Positions 963-26,195 of a stretch of 64,000 nucleotides of DNA are shown here, piece by piece. Positions within the stretch are counted from its first letter, which is position 1, and every line of letters starts with the position of its first letter. This DNA comes from Gammaproteobacteria bacterium (lineage in GTDB: Bacteria > Pseudomonadota > Gammaproteobacteria > Thiomicrospirales > Thiomicrospiraceae): the NCBI GenBank assembly GCA_014763665.1, contig JACXUY010000002.1:1-64000 (forward strand). Direction: 5' to 3'. Made by a program: the position numbers and the translations under genes. The notes beneath the pieces are model-generated. The model worked only from the letters and a program-made list of their open reading frames with translations, ran no database searches and was not told the DNA's origin.

Positions 963-1232
963 TTATTTACGCAGGCCTAAACGAGCAATCAAAGCTTTAT
1001 AACGTTCATGATCTTTACGATTCAGATAGTCTAATAGCTTACGACGTTGGCTAACTAAACGCAACAGACCACGACGTGAATGATGATCTTTTTTGTGCGT
1101 TTTGAAGTGATCGGTCAACTGAAGGATACGCGCTGTCATCAAGGCAACTTGAACTTCAGGTGAACCCGTGTCATTTGCAGCAATAGCGTGCTCAGCAATA
1201 ATCGCTGCAGTTTGTTCTTTAGATAAAGACAT
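963..1232 (-). CDS. rpsO: 30S ribosomal protein S15
   Basis: S15 is a primary 16S rRNA-binding protein that nucleates the platform of the small subunit. At 89 residues it has exactly the family length. It shows the conserved [14 protein letters not shown] segment and the [20 protein letters not shown] core that contacts helix 22 of 16S rRNA. The ATG at 1232 follows AGGAG with a six-base gap. A promoter with a perfect TATAAT lies about 65 bases upstream. In relatives S15 represses its own translation through its leader; the roughly 60-base leader here is long enough for this, but I did not resolve the fold. Confidence 0.97.
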
Positions 1233-1294
1233 GTCAAACTCCTAGGATCGGTTTATACAAAACTCTTCCCCACAACCGATAGCAGGGAATTTTA

Positions 1295-21353: not shown

Positions 21354-23459
21354 TCACTCCTGCGGATGATAAAACCGCTGATTAGCCGGCTTATAAGCCT
21401 TGAATAGTGAAAACCCTTGCTCACTGATTTGCCAGGTCATCGCACCTTGCTGTTGCGTGCTAAAAGACTGTTGCGCCCAACCCGAACGAACTGGACTACC
21501 CGCACTAATCCACAAATCCACCTTGCCAGAAGATGCGCTGGGTTTTGTGCTAAGTGCGGGGGCAATAATGGGCAGATGATGTGGCCAGTCATTGGCTTTA
21601 GGCGTTTGCCAACTCAGCGCAAAGGCAGGTAATTGAGCTTTAGGGTTCATCATCAACCAACACTGTCCCTGATCCGACCACCAACCTTGTATCGGTAAGG
21701 CGTCGGTTGCCGATGCCATTTTGCCCTGTAAGCAAGACTCGCTCGATAGTGTCTGTTCGACGCTCATGCGTTGCTTGAGCACATTCAGTCCTTTTTGCCC
21801 TGCTTCGCTGTTATCGCTCATTACCACACCCGCTAAACGCTTTACGCCCAAGGCCGTTAAACTGGGTAAAATAATGGTTTCCATGCTATGCGACTTGCCA
21901 TGCTGACTGCCCGTACCCATTAACCAATCACCTTGTGGCGTTTGCCACACTGCTACCAATTCATGACGACCCATATCGAGCAGCGTCAAGCGCTGGGTAT
22001 TGTCTGGTAAGCCATGCCACCAAGCCGTTGGCGAGAGCAACAAAACGGCCATTGGCCAAGTGGCAATTTCACTAAGCATCGCCCAGACTAACGCCCATAA
22101 CTGCTCAGTCAGCTGACTTAATAGCGTTGCTAAGCTGGGAAGGATCCAAGCCAGCAAGGCAATGATTAACAGCAAAGGAACCAGCAACCATTCAATAATC
22201 GGCGCTGTAAGTAAATTGGCTAAAGCGGAATAAGTCGGAATCTGTTGAAAAAACAGCAGTAAAAATGGCGCTAATAATAGACTCATGCCCAGATGCAACA
22301 ATACTAAACGCTGCAGCCGTCCCCCTTCTATGGTCAACATCCACAACAAGATAGCCGTAGCAATAAATGACAACCAAAAACCGACTTGCATCACTGCGCC
22401 CACATCCCACAGCAGCACCGCAATTAACGCCCAAGACAGAGTAAGCACAGGATGCAAGGAACGTTTTAGCCACACCGCCATCATCAGCATGACAAACATA
22501 ATCAAGGCACGTTGTACCGGCACATTCATACCCGCCAAAAAGGCAAAACCCACCGCAGCAAATAAGGCAACCAGCGATGCCACTAACACGGCTGGATAGC
22601 GCTGTGAAGGCGCTAATTTCCACAGAGCTAGTCCTAAAAACCACGCCAAACCCGCCACAAGGGTAATATGCGTACCCGACACCACTGCCATGTGCAGGGT
22701 GCCGGTATCACGTAATACGCGCCACTGTTCGTCGGTCACGGCACTCACCTCACCCAACACCAAAGCAACCGACAAACCCGTAAAATCACTATCGGCAGGC
22801 AATACCGATAACAGCTTTTGCATGGCCAACCAACGCCACGACTGCCAATGCCAGCTGCTTTCACTGGGTTCTGAAGCCGTCAATCGGACTACCGTCCCAG
22901 TTGCTTGAATATTTTGCGCAAACAGCCAAGCGGCAAAGTCGATACCAGCAGGGTTATAACGGCCTTGCGTTTCGCGCAACCTTAGCTCAACCGACCACTC
23001 CTCACCGGCCAGCGGCTCTCTTCCTTTGGGAAAAGTTAATAAAACTTTGGCATGGGTTAACGCAGGAGAAGGAGAATCCACTAATCGCGTTAACACTGAC
23101 CAACCCAACGCGGTAGGTTTGGCAATACCATCCACCAACACTTGGGCGGGAAAGGTTGTATTCAGCCAAATAGGTGGGATGCTCTGCGCCTGCCAGTGCA
23201 ACATACGTTCATGCATCAGCCCACCGCCTAATGCAACACCTAACAACACATAAGCGATGACACGCTGCGTTGTTTTAAACCACAAGATTATCGATAACAA
23301 CCCCATGCCAACCCAGAGTAAACGCCAGGTGGGTTCGGGTGTTTCGCTTAATTGCGCCAAACCGATGGCACTGGTGGTCATCGCCAGCGCCAGCCAGAAC
23401 ACCCAGGGACGGTAGCGGCGAAAAGAGGCTAACTCGTTAAGCGCTGAGCGACTCGTCAT
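21354..23459 (-). CDS. comEC: DNA internalisation protein ComEC/Rec2
   Basis: ComEC forms the inner-membrane channel through which single-stranded DNA enters during natural transformation. Roughly 700 residues: N-terminal DUF4131 with two membrane helices, an OB-like soluble part, the Competence domain with about ten helices (VVSGTHITLVAGLAWFLGL is the conserved motif), and a C-terminal metallo-beta-lactamase-like domain. In that last domain the expected DVGQGD reads DMGRHE and the SHxHxDH metal site reads MSDNSEAG, so its metal ligands are gone. The ATG at 23459 is used (a TTG lies three codons earlier); it overlaps the preceding Lon-type gene. Competence itself cannot be inferred from this gene alone. 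Confidence 0.93.
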   Translation of the reverse strand: MTSRSALNELASFRRYRPWVFWLALAMTTSAIGLAQLSETPEPTWRLLWVGMGLLSIILWFKTTQRVIAYVLLGVALGGGLMHERMLHWQAQSIPPIWLNTTFPAQVLVDGIAKPTALGWSVLTRLVDSPSPALTHAKVLLTFPKGREPLAGEEWSVELRLRETQGRYNPAGIDFAAWLFAQNIQATGTVVRLTASEPSESSWHWQSWRWLAMQKLLSVLPADSDFTGLSVALVLGEVSAVTDEQWRVLRDTGTLHMAVVSGTHITLVAGLAWFLGLALWKLAPSQRYPAVLVASLVALFAAVGFAFLAGMNVPVQRALIMFVMLMMAVWLKRSLHPVLTLSWALIAVLLWDVGAVMQVGFWLSFIATAILLWMLTIEGGRLQRLVLLHLGMSLLLAPFLLLFFQQIPTYSALANLLTAPIIEWLLVPLLLIIALLAWILPSLATLLSQLTEQLWALVWAMLSEIATWPMAVLLLSPTAWWHGLPDNTQRLTLLDMGRHELVAVWQTPQGDWLMGTGSQHGKSHSMETIILPSLTALGVKRLAGVVMSDNSEAGQKGLNVLKQRMSVEQTLSSESCLQGKMASATDALPIQGWWSDQGQCWLMMNPKAQLPAFALSWQTPKANDWPHHLPIIAPALSTKPSASSGKVDLWISAGSPVRSGWAQQSFSTQQQGAMTWQISEQGFSLFKAYKPANQRFYHPQE

Positions 23460-25168: not shown

Positions 25169-25660
25169 ATGCCTTCATTTGATATTGTTTCAGAAGTCGA
25201 TAAACACGAATTAGCCAATGCAGTCGATCAAGCCAACAAAGAAGTGACTTCACGCTTCGACTTCAAGGGTACCAACTCTAACTTCACGCTAGACGATAAA
25301 GAAATGGTCGTTAAGCTATTGACTGAATCCGAATTTCAACTTAATCAAATGTACGACGTGCTCACCGCCAAGCTGGTGAAACGCGGCATTGATACCCGTG
25401 CCATTGAGCGTAAAGATGCGGATATTCAACTGAAAACCGCCAAGCAAAATATCATTATTCATCAAGGTATTGATGCCGCCTTAGCGAAAAAAATCACTAA
25501 GGCAATTAAAGATAAGAAACTAAAAGTACAAGCGGCTATTCAAGGTGAAACGGTACGCGTAACGGGTAAAAAACGTGATGATCTTCAAGAAACCATTGCC
25601 ATGTTACGCGCCATGGATGAGCTTGAACGCCCGCTGCAATTCAATAATTTTCGTGACTGA
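25169..25660 (+). CDS. yajQ: YajQ-family cyclic-di-GMP/nucleotide-binding protein
   Basis: A 163-residue protein of the UPF0234 family, found to bind c-di-GMP in Xanthomonas and nucleotides or RNA elsewhere. It opens MPSFDIVSEVDKHELANAVD, with the conserved TSRFDFKGT and a repeated ferredoxin-like fold ending in LQETIAMLRAMDELERPLQFNNFRD. The AGGAGTGAGTT before the ATG is a strong ribosome site. It stands alone; the next 530 bases hold a candidate RNA gene. Confidence 0.95.
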   Translation: MPSFDIVSEVDKHELANAVDQANKEVTSRFDFKGTNSNFTLDDKEMVVKLLTESEFQLNQMYDVLTAKLVKRGIDTRAIERKDADIQLKTAKQNIIIHQGIDAALAKKITKAIKDKKLKVQAAIQGETVRVTGKKRDDLQETIAMLRAMDELERPLQFNNFRD

Positions 25661-25681: not shown

Positions 25682-25710
25682 TTGACAATATAAGAAGCTG
25701 GTAATATCAT
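25682..25710 (+). promoter_or_regulatory. Sigma-70 promoter of an ORF-free transcript
   Basis: Perfect -35 TTGACA (25682-25687), 17-base spacer, -10 TATCAT (25705-25710, five of six). Confidence 0.75.
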
Positions 25711-25716
25711 TGGTCC

Positions 25717-25831
25717 ACCTTAGCAAGAGGATATATTAACCCTTTTGCGACGGTGTTGTGAGCGTTTACCATTTTTACCAGTTTCCTCTGGTTAACTTGT
25801 GGGTTTAGCCTGGCTTTGGTCAGGCTTTTTA
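25717..25831 (+). ncRNA. Candidate small RNA of about 115 nt, function unknown
   Basis: The region has a near-consensus promoter, no open frame with a ribosome site, and a strong terminator (AGCCTG, eight-base loop, CAGGCT, then TTTTTATTT) at 25807-25831. Predicted start is near 25717. Internal complementarity includes AGAGGA (25726-25731) with TCCTCT (25784-25789), and TTAACC (25736-25741) with GGTTAA (25790-25795); these two pairings cross, so they are either alternative folds or a pseudoknot. It does not look like 6S RNA, SRP RNA, RNase P RNA or tmRNA. It could also be a 5' leader that ends prematurely, but the next gene is 365 bases away. Confidence 0.55.
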
Positions 25832-26195
25832 TTTATTCTCTAAACTTCAGCTTAGCTTCCACAGCCCTTTACAGATTACTTCTCAAAAGACATCCATTCC
25901 AGATAGTTTTCCGTACAACAGCTAAATAAACACTCGCCAAAGTATCTTTGCAAAGATAAAGATGCGCTTCGCTCCTCATTCAAACTTCCCACTCTCTTTT
26001 TTAGGTTGGTTGCAGGACATTGAATCAAGCGGTTACCTGTTACTAAAATGCAGTCCTTTCCTCACGAATCCATCCCTTTTGTATTTTTTAAAGATTACCT
26101 TAGTTAAAATCTAAAAAGAACATTCGTTCTATCTGTTATTTTTTCATCGCTCATGTTAACCTAAGCACACTCATTAATAAGGATGGCGATTGGTC
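25832..26195. other. Intergenic region before nadK
   Basis: No credible ORF. It holds a perfect 16-bp palindrome TATCTTTG-CAAAGATA at 25943-25958 and, just after it, a short segment (GCGCTTCGCTCCTCATTC, 25973-25990, then AAACTTCC) resembling the half-repeats at 44479 and 60640. The 3' half is AT-rich and should hold the nadK promoter, which I could not place with confidence. Confidence 0.5.

Follow-up and report, generated by a model that had tools for sequence, protein, structure and literature searches.

A predicted small RNA gene downstream of yajQ, restricted to one genus of sulfur-oxidizing bacteria

Directly 3' of yajQ in a 64,000-nucleotide stretch of gammaproteobacterial DNA (the window), a promoter and a terminator flank approximately 116 nt that contain no conserved open reading frame (ORF). 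What does this unit produce: an RNA that acts in its own right, the end of a yajQ transcript, or a leader for the gene that follows? The reading put forward here, at a probability of roughly 0.7, is that of a stand-alone, genus-restricted, trans-acting regulatory small RNA (sRNA) gene of about 116 nt. The predicted sRNA occupies positions 25715-25832 of the plus strand, with a start (approximately 25715-25717) placed from the promoter spacing and an end in the T tract of the terminator.

Promoter, terminator and genomic position

The sigma-70 promoter (25682-25710, plus strand) was located by a promoter scan and matches the consensus at 11 of 12 positions (-35 TTGACA, 17-nt spacer, -10 TATCAT). 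The intrinsic terminator (25807-25832, plus strand) reads AGCCTGGC TTTG GTCAGGCT followed by a T tract. Its stem (25807-25826) has 8 bp, five of them GC pairs, and at the top of the stem the letters change in relatives while pairing is kept. No ORF of at least 40 amino acids lies within 25682-25831. The first-pass annotation had described just such an arrangement, with a perfect TTGACA, a 17-base spacer, TATCAT and, about 115 nt later, a strong intrinsic terminator with no ORF between; each of these elements is present.

In a single genome, the promoter scan returned three sites against 3.0 expected by chance, which is not above chance, and the case for the unit therefore rests on comparative evidence. 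The closest relatives of the window are MAGs labelled Thiotrichales bacterium or Thiomicrospira. The unit is found in all four sequenced species of this genus (the window and loci L008, L010 and L009), each time directly 3' of yajQ; the homologues thus number only four, and two of them (the window and L008) are close. TTGACA and the exact 17-nt spacing are common to the three relatives, with -10 hexamers TATGAT (L008), TATTAT (L010) and TATACT (L009). A 5' hairpin follows the promoter in each, and the terminator is preceded by the invariant stretches TGTTGTGAGCGTTT, TTTCCTCTGG and TTGTGGGTTT. The unit stands above chance because every species of the genus has the promoter with its spacing, the fold and the terminator at this place after yajQ. 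A functionless, accidental pair of promoter-like and terminator-like sequences would agree with the single-genome scan, but it is effectively refuted by this conservation and by the compensatory changes described below, and its probability is negligible.

The yajQ gene (25169-25660, plus strand) is the sole constant neighbor of the sRNA. The unit had been placed between yajQ and nadK; the yajQ side of that location holds in all four species, whereas the nadK side is incidental, because two of the four (L009 and L010) have a different gene downstream, with nadK on another contig. In place of nadK, an apparent membrane glycosyltransferase gene (from 3697 in L009, after 3655 in L010) starts no more than approximately 40 nt from the sRNA terminator. 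The nadK gene of the window starts near 26190, approximately 360 nt past the terminator, and is followed by recN. The sequence GAACATTCGTTC (26118-26129 in the window) lies 72-79 nt 5' of nadK in all four species.

A promoter, hairpins and a terminator upstream of nadK could also belong to a cis-acting leader or attenuator of the downstream gene, or to one with a small leader peptide. Such an arrangement would suit the short distance to the next gene in L009 and L010, and a 16-codon GTG frame (GTG AGC GTT TAC ...) begins at approximately 25759 in the window. A cis-acting leader is nevertheless highly unlikely, because the unit always follows yajQ, whereas the gene after it differs among species, and the distance to nadK in the window also argues against it. 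Nor is a peptide likely, as no reading frame is preserved: the GTG frame is shifted between the window and its relatives and has differing end points. An ORF on the minus strand (AGAGGAAACTGGTAAAAATG...) was likewise rejected, its frame not being conserved.

Fold and conservation of the predicted RNA

With a folding energy of -37.3 kcal/mol, the predicted transcript (25717-25835) beats 200 of 200 shuffled sequences (z = -3.3). Hairpin 1 (25716-25755, plus strand, as are the elements that follow) forms the 5' end and is built in the window from CACC/GGTG and GCAAGAGG/CCTTTTGC, with compensatory changes in both helices. Next comes the linker TGTTGTGAGCGTT(T) (25755-25767), which is identical in the four species and predicted to be mostly single-stranded. 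Hairpin 2 (25769-25802) has the stem ACCAG/CTGGT, a weaker outer stem CCAT/GTGG (81% of cells paired, no compensatory changes) and an apical UUUCCU(CU) loop that resembles an anti-Shine-Dalgarno sequence; TTTCCTCTGG of this hairpin is invariant in all four species. The stretch TTGTGGGTTT (25797-25806), 5' of the terminator, is also identical in all four, and the anti-Shine-Dalgarno stretch UUUCCUCU of hairpin 2 sits between two invariant stretches.

In alignment A3, which was model-fitted to the structure and so favors it somewhat, the three-hairpin fold pairs 93% of cells (against 29-43% with the partners slid) and eight pairs are changed on both sides. The covariation score on A3 is 0.43, compared with 0.06-0.13 for slid versions, and none of 500 shuffles reached it. 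From a plain MAFFT alignment, RNAalifold independently recovered hairpin 1, the terminator and, of hairpin 2, the inner stem, with seven doubly changed pairs. Hairpin 1 has low sequence identity, yet each species pairs it by different letters.

Identity to the window from the linker to the terminator is 96% in L008, 87% in L010 and 71% in L009, such that the 3' two-thirds of the RNA keep 71-87% identity in the two distant species. The third codon positions of yajQ are 50% (L010) and 47% (L009) identical to those of the window. The 150 nt downstream of the unit show 53% (L010) and 51% (L009) identity, with 52% and 51% for shuffled sequence.

Alternative folds or a pseudoknot had also been suggested, from the crossing pairings AGAGGA/TCCTCT and TTAACC/GGTTAA. 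The letters exist (AGAGGA at 25726 in the 5' arm of hairpin 1, TCCTCT in the conserved loop region, TTAACC at 25736), but these helices lie outside the best fold, and imposing them costs 6 and 12 kcal/mol. They are broken in relatives, where 57% of cells pair, close to the 42-54% of slid controls, and no pair is changed on both sides. The crossing pairings are incidental, and their lack of conservation is a further point against an attenuator that switches between folds.

The position of the unit invites a different explanation, namely that it serves chiefly as 3' UTR and terminator for yajQ, with a promoter of little consequence; any RNA made from it would then be a by-product or be processed from the 3' UTR. 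The unit does begin only approximately 55 nt past the stop codon of its one constant neighbor, and its terminator would end yajQ transcripts too. On the other hand, none of the four species has lost the promoter or altered its 17-nt spacing, and the compensatory changes of hairpin 1 and the three invariant stretches would be superfluous for a bare terminator. The yajQ gene is also present without the unit in other genera; in most of the loci inspected (L011-L027), other genes follow yajQ and the unit is absent. An origin as a yajQ 3' UTR is, on balance, unlikely.

The distribution of the predicted sRNA was traced with a covariance model (R1), which scores 100-141 bits for the four members of the genus. 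It yielded no convincing homologue in the family's 59 remaining genomes (best match 34.5 bits, E-value 0.003 per genome, lacking the invariant stretches) or in another 368 genomes evenly sampled from the class, a few of them from the family. Both searches used strict filters, and strongly diverged homologues might therefore escape them. The plasmid and phage collections held no match to the unit. Two weak model matches in genome G078 (C90:19689-19793 and 22903-23006; L093 and L103) are attributed to chance, as they cover the 3' region of a duplicated flaG-like cassette. The G078 cassettes are two near-identical intergenic sequences with a terminator, each 3' of a copy of the flaG-like gene, and resemble a duplicated gene with its 3' region. 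The match in G068 and the remaining weak matches in other genera were likewise set aside as chance, because the invariant stretches are absent.

The promoter, the three-hairpin fold with its compensatory changes, the terminator, the three invariant stretches and the position after yajQ are all conserved. At the level of sequence, these features indicate that the predicted sRNA gene is real, previously uncatalogued and restricted to one genus of sulfur-oxidizing bacteria.

Proposed action and candidate targets

The most likely function of the predicted sRNA is translational control by base pairing with other mRNAs. Transcription would start at approximately 25716, and hairpin 1 would shield the 5' end of the RNA. 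Dependence on Hfq is probable (all four genomes carry hfq), and Hfq would be bound by the terminator tail and the U-rich stretches. The UUUCCUCU loop of hairpin 2, together with the UGUUGUGAGCGUUU linker and UUGUGGGUUU, would then pair with the ribosome-binding sites of target mRNAs and block their translation.

The loop sequence UUUCCUCU can pair with the complementary Shine-Dalgarno-type sequence AGAGGAAA, which lies 2-9 nt 5' of an ATG 10-12 times per genome, compared with 1-5 times for the reversed pattern, an enrichment that is expected of ribosome-binding sites generally. Among the genes with AGAGGAAA at the ribosome-binding site, one keeps it in all four species; from its sequence, we take this gene to be ccoN, which encodes a cbb3 oxidase subunit. 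The target scans covered approximately 450 kb of genome G000, 800 kb of G003 and 220 kb of G002, with a gene sample that was partly picked because of pattern matches. In a duplex scan with the loop only, ccoN ranks 17th of 412 initiation regions in G000 and 32nd of 748 in G003, and three genes of the cco cluster (ccoN, a ccoP-like and a fixH-like gene) rank in the top six of 178 ortholog pairs, a result that is not significant. In a scan with the entire middle region, ccoN is no better than average, and a purine-rich Shine-Dalgarno 8-mer is kept anyway in 12 of 72 ortholog pairs (approximately one in six). For these reasons, and because of the partly pattern-chosen sample, ccoN is a weak candidate target, a lead and not a result. 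That chemolithoautotrophic sulfur oxidizers control the respiration genes of the cco cluster (cbb3 oxidase) with the anti-Shine-Dalgarno loop of a genus-specific sRNA is accordingly a speculative idea of low probability.

For the other two invariant stretches, a search for exact complements yielded no conserved target in initiation regions. The invariant stretches of this structured RNA show no demonstrable target complementarity, as might be expected if it acted on a protein by sequestration and not by base pairing. 6S and CsrB RNAs are protein-sequestering RNAs of this kind, but the unit has neither the repeated GGA motifs nor a 6S-like open helix, and an Rfam match is also absent. Protein sequestration is therefore given little probability, and base pairing remains the preferred mode of action for the predicted sRNA.

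Comparison with known RNAs

No Rfam family, whether a leader or any other, reaches its gathering score near the unit; weak matches alone were obtained at permissive thresholds. The lack of a leader match also speaks against a cis-acting role. Taken with the compensatory changes and the unit's own promoter and terminator, this result upholds the proposal of the first-pass annotation that the locus encodes a candidate new small RNA. Elsewhere in the window (1176-1293, minus strand), the Rfam ribosomal S15 leader scores 39.9, just above its gathering score of 39.5.

The weak matches are to three sRNA families. Like the unit, RF02278 (a Betaproteobacteria toxic small RNA) has an exposed UCCUC stretch 5' of a strong terminator, and it was matched with 21 bits (E-value 0.084 in a 601-base search). 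The scores of 21 and 20.1 bits are far below the gathering score of 50, the match is confined to the RNA's 3' half, and it is absent from two of the three relatives. In the window and in L091, weak matches to RF00444 (PrrF) extend from promoter to terminator, but their scores of 20.3 and 23.4 bits fall well short of the gathering score (90); PrrF has a Fur-controlled promoter, and no Fur-like site is conserved among the four promoters of the unit. AniS (RF02274) shows weak similarity around UUUCCUCU and the terminator in the window only (20 bits against 50), and no FNR site is conserved at the promoter. CRP- and LexA-like sites were sought at the four sRNA promoters together with Fur- and FNR-like sites, and none is conserved.

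A separate observation concerns the LexA box of this genus. The sequence GAACATTCGTTC 5' of nadK is an instance of the motif GAACRNNYGTTC. Two tandem copies of this motif, 23 bp apart, precede a lexA-like gene in G001 (C106:4208 and 4231) and G003 (C6:50852 and 50875). The same tandem pair is found in G000 (C186:5122 and 5145), and the motif also lies 5' of a parE-like gene. These positions suggest a LexA box in this gammaproteobacterial genus that follows the GAACN4GTTC pattern of Gram-positive bacteria and not CTGTN8ACAG. The support is positional, because genome-wide counts of GAACRNNYGTTC do not exceed those of the control pattern.

Searches of the open-licence literature turned up neither the unit nor any sRNA from Thiomicrospira-like sulfur oxidizers, and no base-pairing sRNA from chemolithoautotrophic sulfur oxidizers. 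The unit would represent a lineage-restricted sRNA gene that was detected from sequence alone and confirmed by covariation, and the first sRNA candidate for testing in these bacteria; the general view of sRNA action is unchanged by it. The predicted sRNA differs from the Hfq-dependent, trans-acting sRNAs of gammaproteobacteria in that it matches no sequence family, is confined to one genus and has putative Hfq binding and targets. It nevertheless resembles this class in its own sigma-70 promoter, its length of approximately 100-120 nt, its 5' hairpin and exposed pairing stretch, its intrinsic terminator with a T tract and the presence of hfq in the genome.
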